Shown piece by piece: positions 1 to 10,740 of a stretch of 26,059 nt of DNA (the stretch's first letter is position 1; every line of letters starts with the position of its first letter). The stretch covers positions 1-26,059 of the IMG/VR virus record IMGVR_UViG_3300017708_000414; one strand, written 5' to 3'. The DNA is from a virus. A model generated the notes under the pieces. The model was given only the letters and a program-made list of their open reading frames with translations. It had not been told where the DNA came from and searched no databases. A program made the position numbers and the translations under genes.

Positions 1-143
1 CCGTTCACAACCTTCATTGCTTTTGACCTGGCGGGTCGCAAGACGCCCTTTTGGAAAAAAGTGTAGTAATCTGGGGTGCTTGGGTTGCTGTGATGGTAGT
101 AACCCTTCTTGTGCGCCCAGCTTAGATCGTTATCTAACCCCAT
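1..143 (-). CDS. Partial leftward gene of unknown function (5' end only)
   Basis: An open frame starts with ATG at 143 and reads leftward for 47 codons without a stop before leaving the window. A strong ribosome binding site, GGAGG, lies 7 bases before the ATG, which supports this start. The visible N-terminus is rich in Tyr, His, Lys and Ser, with a cluster of aromatic residues around residues 15-30 (GYYHH, PDYYTFF), and shows no motif I recognise. The gene diverges from the HTH gene at 216, and the 72 bases between them hold an inverted repeat that could control both. The good SD and open frame make it likely to be real; the function cannot be judged from this fragment. Confidence 0.62.
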   Translation of the reverse strand, partial: MGLDNDLSWAHKKGYYHHSNPSTPDYYTFFQKGVLRPARSKAMKVVN

Positions 144-158
144 GTCGTTACCTCCGTG

Positions 159-187
159 TTGACATCTTCTGTCTATTACTATTTAAC
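159..187 (+). promoter_or_regulatory. Candidate rightward promoter with operator-like inverted repeat
   Basis: A perfect TTGACA (159-164) is followed after 17 bases by TTTAAC (182-187), a weak -10 match, 29 bases ahead of the ATG at 216. The TTGACA is also the left arm of TTGACA-N5-TGTCTA (159-175), an inverted repeat with one mismatch. The same pattern occurs at 3177-3193 in the other divergent region. A protein bound here would cover the -35 element. The -35 and the repeat are seen directly; promoter activity is inferred. Confidence 0.5.
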
Positions 188-215
188 AGCACGAGACAAT
201 GCAAGGGGAAATTTT

Positions 216-419
216 ATGCAATTGGACGATTGGCGAAAAAAGAAGAATCTAAGCTATGTGCAGCTTGCTAAGAAACTTGGCGCAAGCCATGCAACGGTCG
301 TGCGCCGGTGGTGCTTGCCAGCGGATCACAAGGATAAGATGATCCCTTCACCGAAGTTTATGCGTATCATAAGCGAAAGCTCTCTTGGCGAGGTGTCACC
401 TAATGACTTTTACAAGTAG
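216..419 (+). CDS. Small Cro/XRE-like helix-turn-helix protein
   Basis: This 67-residue basic protein is a likely DNA-binding regulator. Residues 12-32 fit the lambda-repressor-type helix-turn-helix: a helix LSYVQLAKKLG, a turn around AS, then a recognition helix HATVVRRW. The frame is open further upstream (from 156), but ATG 216 is preceded by AAGGGGA about 6 bases away, so I chose it. The size is that of a Cro-like protein rather than a full CI repressor; there is no dimerisation or cleavage domain. It is the first gene after the divergent region carrying the TTGACA-N5-TGTCTA repeat, so autoregulation through that site is a natural hypothesis. Its 3' end overlaps the RuvC-like gene by 17 bases, implying translational coupling. 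Confidence 0.75.
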   Translation: MQLDDWRKKKNLSYVQLAKKLGASHATVVRRWCLPADHKDKMIPSPKFMRIISESSLGEVSPNDFYK

Positions 420-867
420 CGTCACGATCGGGATTGACTGCGGTTATCGCACCGGCGGCGTTGCGCTTATTAGTGAGGGCTGGGCAGAGGTGCATGATTT
501 GCCAGTGTACAGCGAGGGCGGTGTTGATGTGCGGGCATTGCTCGACATCATCGAGAGCGTTGAAAGTGTAAAGCACATTTACATCGAGGCTCAACAGGCC
601 ATGCCCCGCCAGGGTGTAGTGTCAGTATTCAAGCTAGGATATGGCTTTGCGCAGATAATGACCACGGCGGCTTTGTCCGGCAAGCCATACACTGCGATCA
701 GGCCTGCGGTCTGGAAAAAGTCAATGAACCTGCCGAAAGACAAGGATAGCGCGCGGCGCATGGCGCAACAGTGGTTCCCAGATTTATCCTCTCAGCTAAA
801 GCGAAAGAAGGATGAACATAGGGCGGAAGCCCTACTAATCGCCCTCTATGGGCAAGGCAAAACATAA
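403..867 (+). CDS. RuvC-like Holliday junction resolvase
   Basis: The 154-residue product has the layout of phage RuvC-type crossover junction endonucleases, which cut four-way DNA junctions and, in phages, resolve branched DNA during replication and before packaging. The acidic active-site residues expected of the RNase H-like fold are present: Asp12 in GIDCG, Glu62 in YIEAQQAM, and a C-terminal group in KKDEHRAEALLIA (Asp137, Glu138, Glu142). The segment PAVWKKSMNL followed by DKDSARRMAQQWFP is typical of the family. An upstream TTG at 385 would add six residues; I prefer ATG 403 because AGGTG lies 7 bases ahead of it. It overlaps the HTH gene and lies in the same operon. Confidence 0.88.
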   Translation: MTFTSSVTIGIDCGYRTGGVALISEGWAEVHDLPVYSEGGVDVRALLDIIESVESVKHIYIEAQQAMPRQGVVSVFKLGYGFAQIMTTAALSGKPYTAIRPAVWKKSMNLPKDKDSARRMAQQWFPDLSSQLKRKKDEHRAEALLIALYGQGKT

Positions 868-884
868 AAACGAAAGGTAACAAC

Positions 885-1178
885 ATGGGTTATACAAGCG
901 AAGGTATCGGATACCAATCAACAGAGACCAGCCGCCAGGCGATCAACGCAGAGCATCTGCTTACGGTTCGAGCAAAGGTGCTGCGTTTTCTGCGCATGGT
1001 TCCGCAATCAATGACAACAGAACAGATCTCGGAAGCTTTAGAGATCCCTTATGTCTCGGTGCAGCCGCGTCTAAGCGAGCTAAAGAATGACAACCTGGTT
1101 AAGATCTCTGAGGATCGAGGCCAGACTAAGTATGGTAAGACATGCGTGAAGTGGCGGGCGGTCGTTGGCAAAGCGTAA
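885..1178 (+). CDS. Winged helix-turn-helix protein
   Basis: This 97-residue protein contains a winged-helix DNA-binding fold over about residues 27-85. A first helix (RAKVLRFLRMVP) is followed by MTTEQISEALEIPYVSVQPRLSELKNDNLV, which matches the helix-turn-helix of MarR/ArsR-like and other wHTH proteins, and then a basic wing (ISEDRGQTKYGKTC). Residues 1-25 look disordered. AAAGG lies upstream of the ATG at a normal distance. The gap from the RuvC-like gene is 17 bases and the next gene overlaps, so it is in the same operon. It is the second candidate regulator in the early region and could act on the palindromes at 159 and 3177. Specificity cannot be read from the sequence. Confidence 0.72.
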   Translation: MGYTSEGIGYQSTETSRQAINAEHLLTVRAKVLRFLRMVPQSMTTEQISEALEIPYVSVQPRLSELKNDNLVKISEDRGQTKYGKTCVKWRAVVGKA

Positions 1179-1362
1179 GCCCCGGCCTGTCTCATGCCTG
1201 ACATGCGGGCGTCAGCACGACTACAACCTGGACGGATGGGTGATCCTGGGCGATGGTAAAACCCTAATCTGTAGCAGCCAGGAGAGTTGCTGGCGTCCGA
1301 TTTACGAGCGCAGCCTGGAGAAGATCCGGGCTGCAAAACCGCAGCGAAAGAAGCTTTATTAG
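1165..1362 (+). CDS. Small Cys-pair (zinc-ribbon-like) protein
   Basis: This 65-residue basic protein has two cysteine pairs, CLTC near residues 11-14 and a later C-x6-C (CSSQESC near residues 36-42), the spacing expected of a zinc-binding knuckle or ribbon. The C-terminus is a run of Lys and Arg, suiting nucleic-acid binding. The start is an uncommon TTG at 1165, overlapping the preceding gene by 14 bases; GGCGG a few bases upstream could be the binding site, and no in-frame ATG follows that would keep both Cys pairs. No family is recognised. Overlap with its neighbour and the conserved-looking Cys spacing favour a real gene. Confidence 0.6.
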   Translation: MAKRKPRPVSCLTCGRQHDYNLDGWVILGDGKTLICSSQESCWRPIYERSLEKIRAAKPQRKKLY

Positions 1363-1377
1363 AAAGGGGGTTGACGG

Positions 1378-1740
1378 ATGCGCAAACGGCTGTACTCTAA
1401 CGAGAGCCCGCCAGGGCGAAATAACAGTATAGTTAATAACTATAAAGTTAATAACAGTGAAGTTAATAACAACACAGCAGTAAATAACTCTATTAATAAC
1501 TATAACATTATAGCTATAAAGCGGATGCTCACCAAAATGTCACCGCAGTACAAAGCAGCTGGAAAGGCTGCGCGGGCCGATCCTTTGGCGTTTCGTATGC
1601 AAAAAACTATCAGGCTGCTGCGCAAAAAGTTAAGCCATCAAAACTTTCTTGAGGCTGTAAAGCACCTGGACCAACTACCACCAATGGAGCAGGCTCAGTT
1701 CTGCCAACAAATTGAGGATTACTATGAACGCGAAGTTTGA
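1378..1740 (+). CDS. Asn-rich hypothetical protein carrying tandem VNN repeats
   Basis: The 120-residue product begins with a basic stretch, then has a strikingly Asn-rich segment (about residues 15-43) in which VNN or INN recurs every 4-6 residues. The C-terminal 75 residues are basic and helical (MQKTIRLLRKKLSHQNFLEAVKHLDQLPPMEQAQFC) and could bind nucleic acid or a protein partner. AGGGGG precedes the ATG. The DNA under the Asn-rich part consists of repeated GTTAATAAC boxes, so the repeats may matter at DNA level as much as in the protein. The gene ends 17 bases inside the DUF3310 gene. I do not recognise the family; one speculative reading is an origin-associated replication protein whose binding sites lie within its own gene. 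Confidence 0.6.
   Translation: MRKRLYSNESPPGRNNSIVNNYKVNNSEVNNNTAVNNSINNYNIIAIKRMLTKMSPQYKAAGKAARADPLAFRMQKTIRLLRKKLSHQNFLEAVKHLDQLPPMEQAQFCQQIEDYYEREV
1432..1500. repeat. Tandem palindromic GTTAATAAC boxes (iteron-like)
   Basis: GTTAATAAC occurs exactly at 1432-1440, 1447-1455 and 1462-1470, with one-base variants at 1480-1488 (GTAAATAAC) and 1492-1500 (ATTAATAAC). Start-to-start spacings are 15, 15, 18 and 12 bases. Each exact box is an odd palindrome (GTTA-A-TAAC). A perfect 12-bp palindrome, TTATAGCTATAA, follows at 1508-1519. The stretch 1420-1520 is much more AT-rich than its surroundings. It lies in coding sequence, and spacings are multiples of three because it encodes VNN/INN. It resembles replication-origin iterons or multiple operator sites; function is inferred only. 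Confidence 0.6.
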
Positions 1741-1972
1741 CCCTGTTGACCAGCCAAAGCACTACGCAAGCTCTTCGATTGAGTGCATCGACGCAATGGC
1801 TGCGATGGTTGAGGGATCTGCATCTGATTTGCCAACAGATTTGCATGACGGGTATTGCTGGCAAAATGCTTTCAAGTACCTTTGGCGTTGGAAAAGCAAG
1901 AACGGCGTCGAGGATCTGCGCAAGTGCAGGTATTACCTTGATCGTTTAATTAGCCGTTTAGAAGAGCGGTAG
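1724..1972 (+). CDS. DUF3310 family protein (T7 gp1.7-like)
   Basis: The 82-residue protein matches the DUF3310 pattern: an N-terminal VDQPKHYASSSIECIDAM and a C-terminal YCWQNAFKYLWRWKSKNGVEDLRKCRYYLDRLI, both hallmark segments of this small phage family. T7 gp1.7, which carries this domain, is a nucleotide kinase acting on dTMP and dGMP. This protein is much shorter than gp1.7 and consists of little more than the DUF3310 core, so kinase activity is uncertain. ATG 1724 was chosen over an upstream TTG at 1712 because GAGG lies 6 bases before it. It overlaps the Asn-rich gene by 17 bases and is the last gene of the rightward early cluster; 24 bases further on lies the leftward terminator. Confidence 0.85.
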   Translation: MNAKFDPVDQPKHYASSSIECIDAMAAMVEGSASDLPTDLHDGYCWQNAFKYLWRWKSKNGVEDLRKCRYYLDRLISRLEER

Positions 1973-1996
1973 CTGCGTTTAGCTATGTCGGGTCAT

Positions 1997-2029
1997 AAAA
2001 AAGAGAGAGCAGCATCTAGCGGCTCTCTC
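1997..2029 (-). terminator. Rho-independent terminator for the leftward small-gene cluster
   Basis: Read on the minus strand, an 8-bp perfect stem (GAGAGAGC at 2029-2022 pairing with GCTCTCTC at 2010-2003) with an 11-base loop is followed directly by six T residues (2002-1997). It lies 28 bases beyond the stop of the last leftward gene. On the plus strand the hairpin has no T tract, so it should act mainly on leftward transcripts. Confidence 0.8.
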
Positions 2030-2057
2030 CGTGGCTCTCAGGCATGTTTTAGGGTTA

Positions 2058-2147
2058 TTATTGGAACAGGAATGGAATGAACAGCAATCCGTAGCCAATT
2101 CCGAACAGGCACAACACGCCGATCAGGTCTCCTATGATCTCTTTCAT
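2058..2147 (-). CDS. 29-residue membrane peptide
   Basis: This very short gene starts at ATG 2147, one base beyond the stop of the preceding leftward gene, with GGGAGAAG placed as a ribosome binding site. The peptide has a short polar start (MKEIIGD) and then about 20 hydrophobic residues (LIGVLCLFGIGYGLLFIPFLF) ending in Gln, which predicts one transmembrane helix. It is followed by two stop codons (TAA TAA) and then the leftward terminator, so it is the last gene of that unit. Small single-span peptides in phages can be lysis, superinfection-exclusion or host-inhibitor proteins; nothing in the sequence decides between these. Confidence 0.6.
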   Translation of the reverse strand: MKEIIGDLIGVLCLFGIGYGLLFIPFLFQ

Positions 2148-2148
2148 T

Positions 2149-2340
2149 TTACTTCTCCCACATTAAAAGAACTTTGCCGATCGCCTTGGTGGCTTTACCT
2201 GCCATGCCTGGGCTGCCGATTAGCTTCTGGATAAAGAACTCTTCCAGATCTTCCACGCTGTCAAAGTCCCACTTGAAGACCTTAACGCCGTACTCGTTGT
2301 CAAACTTTGTTAATTCATACTGCATGGCTGTATTAAACAT
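2149..2340 (-). CDS. Small hypothetical protein, leftward cluster
   Basis: The likely product is 63 residues from ATG 2340, which overlaps the stop of the upstream gene by 8 bases, a sign of translational coupling; no clear Shine-Dalgarno is seen there. A TTG at 2355 and an ATG at 2325 are alternatives. The N-terminal half is acidic and aromatic (YGVKVFKWDFDSVEDLEEFF) and looks like a small alpha/beta unit; the C-terminal half is basic (GKATKAIGKVLLMWEK). I recognise no family. It is the fourth gene of a five-gene leftward unit and ends one base before the membrane peptide gene. Confidence 0.6.
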   Translation of the reverse strand: MFNTAMQYELTKFDNEYGVKVFKWDFDSVEDLEEFFIQKLIGSPGMAGKATKAIGKVLLMWEK

Positions 2341-2608
2341 AACTGATCTGAACAAACTTAACCTGGGGCAAGCCTGGGATCATGCTGCTATATTCGTAGA
2401 TGTCTTCCATGCCGTTGAAGTGGCCGTATTGGTAAGGCATACAAATGTCGCTGATCTTTTCCTTGTTGGCCAAGTCAGACTCGTCGCAATAGATCCGCAC
2501 ACCGTTGCACATAGACGCGCTAAAACTGCTGACGCTGGCTTTGAACCCAGCCGCTTTCATCTTCGCTTTGATCTGGGCCGCTGCCTGTGCTTGTATTGAT
2601 TTCGCCAT
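2333..2608 (-). CDS. LPD29-like small protein
   Basis: The 91-residue product resembles the LPD29 domain (large polyvalent protein-associated domain 29): a helical start (AAAQIKAKMKAAGFKASVSSFS), a strand with VRIYCDESD, and the tail YQYGHFNGMEDIYEYSS...LPQVKFV, the most typical part. LPD29 domains are known from phage and plasmid polyvalent proteins and beside ArdC-like anti-restriction genes; their biochemical role is not settled to my knowledge. Here the domain stands alone. A strong AGGAGG lies 8 bases before ATG 2608, which fixes the start in preference to an upstream in-frame codon. The family assignment is from remembered sequence pattern and needs a profile search. Confidence 0.65.
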   Translation of the reverse strand: MAKSIQAQAAAQIKAKMKAAGFKASVSSFSASMCNGVRIYCDESDLANKEKISDICMPYQYGHFNGMEDIYEYSSMIPGLPQVKFVQISYV

Positions 2609-2619
2609 GTTCTTTCCTC

Positions 2620-2820
2620 CTAACAAATCCGCATTACTTGACCGGCTTTCGCCGCATCGCTCCAGGCTTGCTGACCAGCCTCGTCACCAGACTGAACCAA
2701 AGCCAACAAGCTTTTCTCGAAGATAATATCCTCGATGTCAGTCTGCCGCTCACCAGCCTGGCTGTTGCTGCCGTTGTCGAACAAATCAAACATAGCAGCA
2801 TCTTTTTGTATCTTAGCCAT
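2620..2820 (-). CDS. Small acidic hypothetical protein, leftward cluster
   Basis: A 66-residue protein begins at ATG 2820 with GAGGAG about 8 bases upstream. It is moderately acidic and predicted mostly helical (EDIIFEKSLLALVQSGDEAGQQAWSDAAKAG), with no membrane segment or Cys/His cluster. Its stop codon TAG is embedded in the AGGAGG ribosome binding site of the LPD29-like gene, so the two are tightly packed. A competing frame from 2825 to 2634 lacks its own binding site and is a shadow. No family is recognised. Confidence 0.65.
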   Translation of the reverse strand: MAKIQKDAAMFDLFDNGSNSQAGERQTDIEDIIFEKSLLALVQSGDEAGQQAWSDAAKAGQVMRIC

Positions 2821-2870
2821 CCCAATCTCCTCTTGGTTTAGTGATGCGCCCCGAAAGACGCACTGCTAAA

Positions 2871-3128
2871 TCAAGCCTCGCAAACACCCAAAACGCCAGG
2901 GTTGATCCATTCGGCCATCAAGCCATACTTGTCCAAGATCTTGTTGATCTTGTTGTTAACGCCGAAGTCATCTGCGCCACCTGGGAACTCGTTGTAATAG
3001 TCAGCCCAGCAAACAGGGTAATTCTTTTCGCCGCTGATAACGAACTCGTCAGGATCATCCCAACCTTCGATAACAGGACAACCGATCTTCTCTAAAGCGT
3101 TAAAGGCTTTCTGGAACTGCTGTTTCAT
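2871..3128 (-). CDS. Small acidic hypothetical protein, first gene of leftward cluster
   Basis: The 85-residue protein starts at ATG 3128 with AAGGAGA as a strong binding site 6-7 bases before it. It is acidic, with aromatic patches (EGWDDPDEF, WADYYNEF) and a C-terminus INKILDKYGLMAEWINPGVLGV of a kind seen in small uncharacterised phage proteins. It is the first gene behind the strong leftward promoter at 3165-3193 and is probably the most highly expressed of the cluster. Small acidic proteins expressed first from a strong promoter are often host-takeover or anti-defence proteins (DNA mimics such as Ocr are a precedent), but no such activity can be shown here. About 50 bases separate it from the next gene, with a weak 6-bp hairpin (2845-2862). 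Confidence 0.68.
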   Translation of the reverse strand: MKQQFQKAFNALEKIGCPVIEGWDDPDEFVISGEKNYPVCWADYYNEFPGGADDFGVNNKINKILDKYGLMAEWINPGVLGVCEA

Positions 3129-3164
3129 TGTTTGTCTCCTTGTTTTGTTACCTCTTACAAGACC

Positions 3165-3193
3165 TATATAATGACCTTGACAGATGCTGTCAA
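3165..3193 (-). promoter_or_regulatory. Strong leftward sigma70-type promoter
   Basis: On the minus strand a perfect TTGACA (3193-3188) is separated by exactly 17 bases from TATATA (3170-3165), which is close to consensus. The promoter lies 37 bases ahead of ATG 3128 and faces the leftward cluster. It implies transcription by host RNA polymerase. Confidence 0.78.
3177..3193. promoter_or_regulatory. Perfect operator-like palindrome over the leftward -35 box
   Basis: TTGACAG-ATG-CTGTCAA is a perfect inverted repeat with 7-bp arms. Its right arm is the -35 box of the leftward promoter, so a bound dimer would block it. The repeat shares its TTGACA-N5-TGTC(A/T)A layout with 159-175. The 216 HTH protein or the 885 winged-helix protein are candidate ligands by position only. 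Confidence 0.6.
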
Positions 3194-3205: not shown

Positions 3206-3230
3206 AAAAAAATTACGGCCTTCGGCCTAA
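3206..3230 (-). terminator. Leftward rho-independent terminator
   Basis: On the minus strand GGCC-GAA-GGCC, extended by TTA/TAA pairing around one bulged base, is followed by a run of seven T residues (3212-3206). It would stop leftward transcripts that enter from the packaging side before they reach the leftward promoter. The stem is short, so efficiency is uncertain. Confidence 0.55.
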
Positions 3231-3309: not shown

Positions 3310-3335
3310 GCTCCGCCTTCGGGCGGGGCGCTTTT
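3310..3335 (+). terminator. UUCG-loop terminator or attenuator before terS
   Basis: GCTCCGCC and GGCGGGGC form an 8-bp stem (one G-T wobble) closed by a TTCG tetraloop, followed by GC and four T residues. It lies 14 bases upstream of the small terminase start, so it sits inside the leader of the late operon. It may cap an upstream transcript or act as an attenuator that late transcription must overcome. Confidence 0.6.
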
Positions 3336-4256: not shown

Positions 4257-5530
4257 TGCACATTGAGATCCCTTATCAGCCGAGGCCATTGCAGCTGGCG
4301 TTGCACGATGAGATGCAGGAGAAGCGTTGGGGCGTTGTTGTTTGTCACCGTAGGTTTGGCAAAACTGTTTGGGCGATTAATCATATACTGCGCCATGCGT
4401 TAATGTCTGATAAGCCGAACCCCCGGTATGCCTACATGGCACCCACCTATAGGCAGGCGAAGAATGTTGCGTGGGATTATATAAAACAGTTTGCTGGCAA
4501 GATACCTGGCGTTAAGTTCCATGAGACTGAATTGCGTTGTGACCTGCCTAACGGGGCTAGGATTAGCTTGTTGGGCGCTGAGAACCCTGACAGTCTTCGT
4601 GGTATCTATCTTATGGGTTGTGTGATGGACGAGGTTGCTGACATGCCTGAGAGCGTGTTTCCAGAGATCTTGCGTCCTGCTCTTTCGGATCATAAGGGCT
4701 TTTGTATTTTCGTTGGAACCCCGAAGGGTCACAATGCTTTCTTTGATTATTATGAGCAGGCGGCTGCTAATGATGATTGGTTAGCTGCTGTGTACAAGGC
4801 TAGTGAGACTGGGATCTTAGATGATGAAGAGTTAACAGCTGCTCGGGATATGATGAGCGCGGATCAGTATGCGCAGGAATTTGAGTGCAGCTGGAACGCG
4901 AATGTGCCCGGTGCAATCTTTGGCAAGGAGCTTGAGGCTTCTCAGTTGGAGGGTCGGATAACCAATGTTCCGTATGATCCTTCTGTTAAGGTTGACACCT
5001 GGTGGGATCTTGGCGTTGGGGACTCTACAGCAATTTTCTTCACACAGACTGTTGGTCGTGCTATACATGTGATAGATTACTACGAAGCGAGGGGCGAGGG
5101 ACTGCCGCATTATTGCAAGGTTCTTAGCACAAAGCGGTATTTGTATGGCGATCACAATGCGCCTCACGACATCGAGGTGAGGGAGTTGGGATCTGGTAAG
5201 AGTAGAAGAGAAGTGGCTTGGGATCTTGGTTTGAATTTCAGAGTAGTGCCGAAGCTGCCGGTGGAGGATGGACTTCATGCGGCTAAACTTCTTATTCCCC
5301 GTGTATGGTTTGATCGTGAGAAGTGCAAACATGCTCTGGAGGCGTTGCGTCAGTACCATAGAGCGTATAACGAGCGGTCTAGGACGTTCCGTGCGTCACC
5401 TGTTCACGATTGGTCGAGCCACTGCGCGGATGCTTTTCGGTATCTGGCTGTTGGTCTTAGAGAGAGTAGGGGCGATAGTAGAGCGCCTCAGAGGCAAGCT
5501 TTGATGGATTACGATCCATTTGCGGCGTAG
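4256..5530 (+). CDS. Terminase large subunit (packaging ATPase/nuclease)
   Basis: The 424-residue protein is the motor that cuts concatemeric DNA and pumps it into the procapsid through the portal. The ATPase part shows a Walker A variant CHRRFGKT (residues 30-37), an adenine/Q-like segment YQPRPLQ near residue 7, Walker B CVMDE (Asp125, Glu126) and the coupling motif GTPKG (154-158). The nuclease part has an RNase H-like set of acids: Asp251 in WWDLGVGDST, Asp299 in YGDH and Asp392 in HCADAFRYLAVG. The length is slightly short but complete. The start is supported by GGAGG 10 bases ahead and by overlap with the 58-residue gene. Confidence 0.95.
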   Translation: MHIEIPYQPRPLQLALHDEMQEKRWGVVVCHRRFGKTVWAINHILRHALMSDKPNPRYAYMAPTYRQAKNVAWDYIKQFAGKIPGVKFHETELRCDLPNGARISLLGAENPDSLRGIYLMGCVMDEVADMPESVFPEILRPALSDHKGFCIFVGTPKGHNAFFDYYEQAAANDDWLAAVYKASETGILDDEELTAARDMMSADQYAQEFECSWNANVPGAIFGKELEASQLEGRITNVPYDPSVKVDTWWDLGVGDSTAIFFTQTVGRAIHVIDYYEARGEGLPHYCKVLSTKRYLYGDHNAPHDIEVRELGSGKSRREVAWDLGLNFRVVPKLPVEDGLHAAKLLIPRVWFDREKCKHALEALRQYHRAYNERSRTFRASPVHDWSSHCADAFRYLAVGLRESRGDSRAPQRQALMDYDPFAA

Positions 5531-5540
5531 GAGATAGAAA

Positions 5541-6233
5541 ATGGCAATCTTTGTTCCAATTCTAGCGGGCTTGGGTGGCGCGGCGGTAGCTACTGCTTTA
5601 GGGGCAACGGCAATCACGGCGGGCGTTGTCGGCGTTACAACGGCTGTTGTTACCAATTCTTTGATGAACCAGCCCCCGCCACAAGCAGTGGCTGTTCCAG
5701 ATGTTCCTGCTGTTGATACTGCTGCTACAGATACAACGGTGGTGGACACTAGCGGTGCTACTGGTGGCGCGGATACAACCATTAATGATGTTGTTGAAGT
5801 GCAAAAAACCGTACTCGAAACAGCAGAAACGACCACAGAGGAAGAAATCGTTGCTGAGGAAGTTGTTGGAACCACAGTTAAAACGGAGACTGGCGGGGAA
5901 GGCAAAATAACAGAGGTTGAAACTAAAACCGGCGAGGCTACTGTTGAAGTTACTCCAGGCACAACAACTTCGGGTGGCGTTCTTACTGGCGGAACAACCA
6001 CAACCAGCGCGGGAACGGCTGCTGGTGGCGTTGCTGAAGCTGTTGTTGCCACTACTCAGTCACAAGGACCGGCGGAAGACGAGGCTATTAGTTTCTATGA
6101 AAAAGGTCGCCGCTCCACTATACTAACAAGCGCCCAGGGTATTCAGGACACAGTTTCGGGTCTTCTTAGTGACACGGGCACTTCAATGCTGCGTAGGCGG
6201 CGTGGCCTTGTAGGCCAGGGGTTAATCGCATGA
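5541..6233 (+). CDS. Thr/Val-rich protein with hydrophobic N-terminus
   Basis: The 230-residue protein begins with about 40 residues rich in Gly, Ala, Val and Ile (LAGLGGAAVATALGATAITA, then GVVGVTTAVV), enough for one or two membrane-spanning or glycine-zipper helices. Residues 45-175 are low-complexity Thr, Val, Glu and Gly, probably extended or disordered. The C-terminus (GRRSTILTSAQGIQD, ending RRRRGLVGQG) resembles the tail of small uncharacterised proteins found beside the portal gene in other podoviruses. It lies 10 bases after terL, with GGAG upstream, and overlaps the next gene by 4 bases. It may be a minor virion or ejected protein; a role in lysis (holin-like) is a weaker alternative because of its length. 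Confidence 0.75.
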   Translation: MAIFVPILAGLGGAAVATALGATAITAGVVGVTTAVVTNSLMNQPPPQAVAVPDVPAVDTAATDTTVVDTSGATGGADTTINDVVEVQKTVLETAETTTEEEIVAEEVVGTTVKTETGGEGKITEVETKTGEATVEVTPGTTTSGGVLTGGTTTTSAGTAAGGVAEAVVATTQSQGPAEDEAISFYEKGRRSTILTSAQGIQDTVSGLLSDTGTSMLRRRRGLVGQGLIA

Positions 6234-9222: not shown

Positions 9223-10086
9223 ATGTCTACTCAAGTAACTACAGCTTTCGTCAATCAGTTTTCGTCAAACATCCAGATGCTGTCACAGCAAATGGGTTCT
9301 CTGCTGCGCAACGCGGTAGATGTCGAATCTGTAAACGGCGAAAAAGCTTTCTTCGACCAAGTGGGTGCAGCGGCAGCACAGCTGCGTACAACCCGTCACG
9401 CGGATACTCCGCTTATCGACACGCCACATTCACGGCGCATGGTAACTATGTCAGACTACGAATATGCTGACTTGATCGACGATCAGGACAAAGTTCGTAT
9501 GCTTGTTGACCCGACATCCACATACTCCCGTGCAGCTGCTGCTGCTATGGGCCGTGCGATGGATGATGTTATCATCACTGCGGCCTTGGGCGACTCGCTC
9601 ACAGGCAAAGATGGCGGCACAACAACAGCGTTTGACACAACAAACAATCAAATCGCTGCGGCCACCTCGGGCTTGACACTTGCCAAGCTGATCCAAGCAA
9701 AAGAAATCTTGGACTCGGGCAATGTTGACCCTTCAATCAACCGTTATATTGCTGTGTCTCCTAAGCAGGTCACTGACTTGCTGAACAACACAACAGTAAC
9801 TTCTAGCGATTACAACACTGTAAAAGCTTTGGCGATGGGTGAAATCAACACATTTGTTGGGTTCAACTTTATTGTTTCAAACCGCTTGGGTGTTGATGCG
9901 TCAAGCGATCGTCGCTGCTTCGCATGGGCTGAAGACGGTATCAAAGTCGCTATGGGTAAAGAGCCTACAGCGCGCATTGATGAACGTGCAGACAAGTCTT
10001 ATGCGACTCAAGTTTACTACTGCCAGACTCTCGGTGCGACACGCATGGAAGAGACCAAGGTGGTAGAGGTCTTGTGCGAAGAGTAA
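9223..10086 (+). CDS. Major capsid protein
   Basis: The 287-residue protein fits the short HK97-fold capsid proteins of BPP-1-type podoviruses. Features seen: an N-arm with FVNQFSSNIQMLSQQMGSLLRNAV, ADTPLIDTPHSRRMVTMSDYEYADLIDDQDKVRMLVDPTS in the region of the E-loop and first P-domain strands, then SRAAAAAMGRAMDDVIITAALG, a spine-helix-type segment, and FVGFNFIVSNRL near residue 210. The C-terminus TQVYYCQTLGATRMEETKVV suits the final A/P-domain strands. Codon usage looks tuned, as expected for a highly expressed gene. It follows the scaffold gene and is followed by a very strong hairpin terminator. Confidence 0.93.
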   Translation: MSTQVTTAFVNQFSSNIQMLSQQMGSLLRNAVDVESVNGEKAFFDQVGAAAAQLRTTRHADTPLIDTPHSRRMVTMSDYEYADLIDDQDKVRMLVDPTSTYSRAAAAAMGRAMDDVIITAALGDSLTGKDGGTTTAFDTTNNQIAAATSGLTLAKLIQAKEILDSGNVDPSINRYIAVSPKQVTDLLNNTTVTSSDYNTVKALAMGEINTFVGFNFIVSNRLGVDASSDRRCFAWAEDGIKVAMGKEPTARIDERADKSYATQVYYCQTLGATRMEETKVVEVLCEE

Positions 10087-10134: not shown

Positions 10135-10740
10135 ATGACCAGCGTTGTAGATATTGCCAATTACGCCCTAAACTCTTTAGGTGCTTCTAACATTACGTCC
10201 CTTGGCGAGAACAGTAAGCCAGCCAGGATTGTTAATCAGCGTTATGAGGCAGTTCGGGACAGCGTGTTTCGGTCTCACCCCTGGAATTGTTTGATACGAA
10301 GAGCGGAGCTTGCGCAAGAAACAGCTGCGCCTGTCTACGGTTATGCCCGTCAGTATGCGTTACCGTCTGATCCATACTGCCTGCGTGTGCTACAGTTCAG
10401 CAATGGCTCGATGACTTTCCCGTATGACAACATGCGCAGCAACAGCGACACGCCTCCATTTATCATAGAGGGGCGAAAACTCCTTACGGATGAAAACACA
10501 GCAAAGATAAAGTACGTTGCTCGTATTACCGACCCGCAACAATATGACGCCGGTTTGATTGAGGTCTTGGCTTCCCGCCTGGCCTATGAAGTTTCCTATG
10601 CAATCACCGGATCAACTACTGTTCGGCAAATTGCTGCGGCTGACTTCGATCGTAAGCTAAAGGATGCTCGTTTCGAGGACGCAACAGAAGGCGCGCCAGA
10701 GCGGATTGAAGCTAGTGACTTTATTGAGGCGAGGTTCTAA
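10135..10740 (+). CDS. Tail tubular protein A (T7 gp11-like)
   Basis: The 201-residue protein corresponds to the T7 gp11 / P22 gp4 family of gatekeeper proteins, which bind under the portal and close the head. It begins with the family signature VVDIANYALNSLGASNITSL, continues with QRYEAVRDSVFRSHPWNCLIRRAEL and then GYARQYALPSDPYCLRVLQF, and ends with a helical DRKLKDARFEDATEG. Length is normal for gp11 (196 residues in T7). GGAGAGAG lies before the ATG. The gene ends directly against tail tubular B, whose ATG follows the stop without any gap. Confidence 0.93.
   Translation: MTSVVDIANYALNSLGASNITSLGENSKPARIVNQRYEAVRDSVFRSHPWNCLIRRAELAQETAAPVYGYARQYALPSDPYCLRVLQFSNGSMTFPYDNMRSNSDTPPFIIEGRKLLTDENTAKIKYVARITDPQQYDAGLIEVLASRLAYEVSYAITGSTTVRQIAAADFDRKLKDARFEDATEGAPERIEASDFIEARF

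Follow-up and report, generated by a model that had tools for sequence, protein, structure and literature searches.

The stretch of DNA analysed here, called the window, comprises the 26,059 bases of the IMG/VR record IMGVR_UViG_3300017708_000414 and carries the terminase, portal, capsid and tail genes of a podophage. Among annotated phages the HTVC010P-type pelagiphages are nearest to it (portal ~58-61% and TerL ~56% identity), and their gene order is also present in the window. Minus-strand genes are confined to positions 3-143 and about 2149-3128; 143/216 and 3128/3350 are therefore the only divergent junctions, as a preliminary description of this sequence had stated. At the first of these a nuclease-like gene, of which the first 47 residues are encoded in the window (3-143, minus strand), is divergent from a gene for a 67-aa helix-turn-helix (HTH) protein (216-419, plus strand), and a 97-aa winged-helix-like protein is encoded further on (885-1178, plus strand). 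The second separates a leftward cluster of about four small open reading frames (ORFs; 2149-3128, minus strand) from the terminase gene terS. We describe here a 17-bp palindromic operator, TTGAC-N7-GTCAA, that occurs in both regions, and propose the HTH protein, referred to below as 216, as its binder.

The preliminary description had placed the same palindrome in both divergent regions, and both sequences were found there: operator 1 (TTGACATCTTCTGTCTA) at 159-175 and operator 3 (TTGACAGATGCTGTCAA) at 3177-3193. The two halves of operator 3 form a perfect 7-bp inverted repeat (TTGACAG-ATG-CTGTCAA), again as described, and operator 1 is imperfect, with TGTCTA as its right arm. A weaker site that had been missed, operator 2 (TTAACAGCACGAGACAA, 183-199), lies 7 bp from operator 1. 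When the whole record was searched for exact TTGACAN5TGTCWA, these two divergent-region sites, operators 1 and 3, were the only matches, and the reversed pattern used as a control gave none. With up to two mismatches the same simple pattern matched 11 times in the window against 3.9 expected, a number reached by 2 of 100 shuffles and thus only moderately above chance. The strong evidence comes from an external matrix, trained on the sites of distant homologues with the window and its close group excluded. This matrix ranked operator 3 first (score 20.0), operator 1 second (16.5) and operator 2 third (12.5), the top score in 60 simulated windows being 16.2, which for operators 3 and 1 speaks against chance occurrence. 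If placed by chance, the two best sites would both fall within the divergent spacers (293 bp in all) with a probability of ~1e-4. Further matrix matches at 409 (9.8) and 2297 (10.5) score no higher than simulated sequence does, and we do not claim them as sites.

Homologues of 216 were sought with short exact peptides, including HATVVRRW of the recognition helix; 124 were found in viral contigs and 80 were fetched. Had the motif been absent from the matching regions of relatives, the proposal would have fallen. Instead, all 38 distinct distant homologues (≤76% identity) have the operator within 160 bp upstream at ≤2 mismatches (shuffles: mean 3.0, maximum 9), and 34 of the 38 have it at ≤1 mismatch (shuffle mean 0.2). 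TTGAC-N7-GTCAA was also the commonest perfect 5-bp dyad upstream of HTH homologues in an open count that assumed no sequence. Every one of 15 HTH-bearing sequences scanned with the matrix, the window included, has a site upstream of its own HTH gene, and 40 of their 58 matches are intergenic although these sequences are 93-98% coding. A sequence outside the training set with 54% HTH identity (L218) carries a site scoring 21.2 at 61 bp upstream of its HTH gene. Operator 1 is identical at ≥90% in 16 of 17 positions across 11 close sequences, and many distant relatives have a homologue of it near -56 to -62. Homologues of operator 2 in close relatives score 11.5-16.6, their arms being preserved and their centre variable; in L007 one arm has been swapped for a different consensus-like arm. 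A pair of sites is also frequent in distant relatives, the centres being mostly 28-30 or 39-42 bp apart. A helical-phasing rule for the pairs was considered and dropped, since spacings of 24, 28-30 and 39-42 bp fit no single rule. Finally, site positions 6 and 12, which played no part in the choice of sites, are symmetric in 27 of 45 cases against 14.9 on shuffling (a value reached in 0 of 500 shuffles), an excess that kinship inflates. On this comparative evidence the two palindromes of the preliminary description are real conserved sites and most likely the docking sites of the Cro-like protein encoded beside the first.

The predicted structure of 216 is a five-helix XRE fold (pLDDT 91) close to P22 c2, CylR2 and YdaS; against P22 c2 it gave Z 8.0 and an rmsd of 2.2 over 59 residues, a Z near 8 being modest for a small helical domain. 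The presence of its gene tracks that of the operator among 45 longer relatives. At ≤1 mismatch, the 33 with the HTH gene contain 129 sites against 27 for the reversed pattern, and the 12 without it contain 13 against 6; two of these 12 (G028, G036) look like fragments that end before the HTH gene. In four HTH-less records of 32-34 kb the matrix found no match. Two of these four (G031, G034) are still 83-86% identical to the window in TerL, 80% in portal and 82% in capsid. In both (L190/L191 and L192/L193, respectively) the early module, HTH gene and operators included, has been wholly replaced by another. The HTH protein encoded at the syntenic place in HTVC010P-type isolates has a different recognition helix, and the operator, when sought in their control region, was absent. 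In HTVC034P (L202) and HTVC010P (L203) the sequence TATAC-N9-GTATA, a candidate operator there, lies ~34-16 bp upstream of the HTH start. The preliminary description had invoked a single dimeric regulator for both regions, and the joint presence and joint absence of site and HTH gene, together with the covariation of positions 6 and 12, agree with this. Because of this co-occurrence and symmetry, the siteless isolates with a different recognition helix, and the failure of the winged-helix gene to track the operator (see below), we favour a dimer of 216 as the binder.

At the second divergent junction, an arm of operator 3 forms the -35 box of a putative leftward promoter, TTGACA-N17-TATATA (3165-3193, minus strand), and the left arm of operator 1 likewise coincides with the putative rightward -35 (TTGACA) of the HTH gene. 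The preliminary remark that both copies overlap a consensus -35 box is thus true but automatic, because TTGACA is itself that box. In many relatives, down to ~60% identity in TerS, a homologue of operator 3 lies before terS with a centre that has diverged; the initial TA of the leftward -10 recurs in many relatives with the 17-bp spacing, and the conserved promoter there points leftward. The preliminary description had suggested that late transcription is perhaps controlled as well; a rightward TTGTTA-N16-TATAAT is present at 3145-3172, but matches of this sort are no commoner than in shuffled sequence. Behind operator 3, the first leftward gene has been exchanged between close relatives (the window, L007, L091-L165) while operator and promoter stayed constant, and nine of ten such genes tested had no Pfam match. 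From these comparisons the region looks like an accessory slot of variable content served by a constant operator-promoter. Two GC-rich, terminator-like hairpins with TTCG loops lie between operator 3 and terS, at about 3213-3230 and at 3310-3329, the latter trailed by a short T run.

Two kinds of gene are found opposite the HTH gene. One, present in the window and most relatives, is the nuclease-like gene, which has a weak PHROG nuclease-type match (E 0.0035); its N-terminus in the window is identical in full-length relatives, and it encodes 330 aa in L003. In 14 of 46 distinct cases (13 labelled in the HTH tree, plus L055, whose protein is among those tested for domains) a CI-like repressor of 211-272 aa is divergent from the HTH gene instead, with the nuclease-like gene directly behind it. 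An N-terminal HTH_26 domain was found in all 11 CI-like proteins tested. A model of one (pLDDT 90) could be aligned along most of its length with a lambda-186 hybrid repressor, though the rmsd was high (9.6), and its C-terminal part matched LexA (Z 8.8, rmsd 3.1, 107 residues). The CI-like proteins gave no Pfam match to Peptidase S24 and their alignment has no evident conserved Ser-Lys pair; judged from sequence, the repressors of L049 (4184-4816) and relatives may not be RecA-cleavable. The preliminary description had found no CI-type repressor and suggested a small-phage switch that does without one. At the switch locus of the window a CI-like gene is indeed absent, and the nuclease-like gene faces the HTH gene directly. 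Relatives, however, carry a gene for a CI-like repressor in this very position, so that the arrangement looks like a CI/Cro-type switch without CI and not like a new kind of switch.

An integrase is present in all of the CI-type records G013, G014, G015 and G024-G026; none was detected in G020, a CI-type fragment of 16 kb, and G022 has an integrase but no CI. Four of these records, G022 included, were examined at sequence level, and each has an operator immediately 5' of its integrase gene (L178 of G014, 10177-10215; L180 of G015, 10012-10028; L182 of G022, 5772-5788; L196 of G026, 804-820), which suggests that the integrase belongs to the same regulon. No integrase is annotated in the 26-kb window, itself a fragment, or in near-complete nuclease-type relatives, and those nearer the window, of up to 35 kb, have neither CI nor integrase. 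One pair of relatives captures the difference at close range. The DNA of L077 (nuclease-type, 5700-6100) matches that of L074 (CI-type, 5000-6100) at 91-95% identity to either side of a ~680-bp CI segment that is missing in L077, and both flanking operators are retained. The operator before the nuclease gene differs between them by a symmetric substitution pair (ATGACGCATTGCGTCAA versus ATGACGTATTACGTCAA). Loss of CI in L077 is the simpler reading because L066 and other neighbours carry CI. For the window's clade, loss and original absence are not told apart, because the HTH tree (67 columns) is unrooted and has 4-5 state changes. The operator is common to CI-type and CI-less relatives, which is a hint, but no more than a hint, that CI and Cro may bind the same operators.

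We consider it likely that 216 is a Cro-like dimeric repressor of its own promoter, the divergent nuclease promoter and the leftward accessory promoter, and represents the Cro half of a CI/Cro switch. The evidence was computed directly and is comparative throughout: conservation of the sites, covariation across the dyad, their joint occurrence with the HTH gene, the predicted XRE fold, and the presence or absence of CI, from sequence comparison and predicted structures. From it we infer binding, dimerisation, repression rather than activation, and timing. A 216 dimer would bind TTGAC-N7-GTCAA at 159-175 and 183-199 in its own control region and at 3177-3193, ~3 kb away. At operators 1 and 2 it would limit its own transcription and the divergent nuclease/recombination transcript; at operator 3, over the leftward -35, it would limit the accessory-gene transcript. 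The resulting pulse, probably early in infection, would be self-terminating in the manner of lambda Cro. In relatives CI sits between the operators and the nuclease gene. It is absent at that place in the window, and the proposal is limited to the Cro half because this feature of a lambda-type CI/Cro switch is not found there.

Several observations weigh against this proposal. A general consensus scan returned promoter matches in the operator region at shuffle level and missed the proposed leftward promoter at 3165-3193, and the putative rightward promoter of the HTH gene has a weak -10 near 181-187. With 19.9 bits against HTH_3 (PF01381), 216 falls under the Pfam gathering cut-off of 23. Eighteen of the 58 matrix matches lie within called ORFs. 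Since HATVVRRW was among the search peptides, the invariance of the recognition helix is partly ascertainment. Most relatives are fragments, and as the whole early module is swapped in HTH-less relatives, the binder could be another gene lost together with 216.

The preliminary description had named both 216 and the winged-helix protein at 885 as possible regulators. The latter, binding alone or with 216, has in its favour its winged-helix-like character, its place downstream of the HTH gene and its presence in many HTH-bearing relatives. Its presence does not track the operator, however: 12 HTH-bearing records with sites at ≤1 mismatch (G008, G011, G015-G017, G020, G022-G026, G045) lack a homologue of it, and the 34-kb record G001 has one (52-53%) but neither HTH gene nor site. 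We thus rate a role for this protein at the operators as highly improbable and retain only the first candidate. Nor do we give much weight to a reading in which no regulator is involved and the sites are strong sigma-70 promoters, TTGACA with an accidental partial inverted copy. Both sites do offer a possible -10 at a suitable distance from this consensus -35, but the right arm is as strongly conserved as the left while the centre drifts, positions 6 and 12 covary, and the reversed-pattern control was low. The absence of sites where the HTH gene is absent and the symmetric substitution pair of L077 and L074 point the same way, and we hold this explanation to be very unlikely.

A different question is what 216 does once bound. 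Lambda CI activates PRM from operators between divergent promoters, and the operator pairs here are also placed between divergent promoters, while other operators stand 5' of integrase genes; 216 might then act mainly as an activator or as a two-way switch. Against this, operators 1 and 3 overlap the -35, which would be the usual polymerase-blocking position, and in its model 216 appears to be a lone HTH domain with no evident activation domain. Activation as its main role is therefore unlikely in our judgement. The operators could also be kept as sites for the CI of temperate relatives that co-infect or are resident, or for a host regulator, with 216 in a minor part. Such a foreign CI would probably bind them, because CI-type relatives share them. 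Binding by a foreign repressor would be counter-selected, though, and the CI-less clade retains the sites together with 216; a host regulator would leave the absence of sites in HTH-less relatives unexplained. We see next to no likelihood in either form of this explanation.

The resemblance of this arrangement to lambda CI/Cro (OR/OL) extends to 17-bp dyad operators, a small protein of XRE fold whose gene is read from the operator region, an operator pair 7 bp apart, which is the OR1-OR2 spacing of lambda, an additional operator at a remote leftward promoter and, in the window's relatives, a divergently encoded CI-like repressor. The predicted operator itself, TTGAC-N7-GTCAA, is different; two sites rather than three lie at the autoregulatory region, and in the window a nuclease-like gene occupies the place of CI. 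D29 and other Cluster A mycobacteriophages are natural lytic phages that have lost the repressor gene (PMC6550527), and are in this respect comparable as obligately lytic relatives of temperate phages. The Cluster A repressors, however, act as monomers on asymmetric stoperators of 13-14 bp, with no analogue of Cro (PMC6550527), whereas the system of the window keeps a Cro-like protein and dyad operators. TgrL of PhiCbK, a lytic phage of an alphaproteobacterium, is a small, early-expressed XRE regulator that acts on host genes (PMC10688885); the sites predicted here sit instead in the phage's own control regions. HTVC010P, HTVC034P and Skadi-1 share with the window the order of nuclease/annealing genes leftward, HTH gene rightward, small leftward genes and terminase. 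For Skadi-1, two transcriptional regulators have been noted with no targets described (PMC10504331). No earlier description of the TTGAC-N7-GTCAA operator was found in the literature searched, a scope that excluded the main HTVC010P-type genome paper.

Several kb of the window's genome may be missing, since relatives reach 34-35 kb. Its GC content of 49% makes SAR11 an improbable host. A scan of bacterial genomes with the HTH alignment confirmed no prophage relative. A capsid scan of bacterial genomes returned 18 loci, of which L218 alone has both HTH gene and operator; this is a 38-kb contig inside a metagenome-assembled genome (MAG) and probably a phage contig, so that no host was identified. 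A second HTH_3 protein, above the cut-off, lies at 6354-6467 of L168 (G005) in an open frame of 137 aa and was not seen in the window. At 1426-1510 of the window, within a 120-aa ORF at 1378, there are several iteron-like direct repeats resembling GTTAATAAC. A scan for RNA families and tRNAs found none.

HTVC010P-like marine podophages rely on host RNA polymerase, and to our knowledge their transcriptional control is largely undescribed. For the phage of the window, sequence alone now allows a regulator to be predicted together with its operator code and three targets. Rather more tentatively, and with less than even confidence, we suggest that an uncultured marine podophage clade has repeatedly dropped CI, that Cro and its operators have been selected as a lytic timing circuit with an accessory slot, and that these phages may still be sensitive to the CI of temperate relatives. 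With natural CI-plus/CI-minus pairs at hand, the role of Cro without CI becomes testable, as does the question of whether phages that lack CI still fall under the immunity of temperate relatives.

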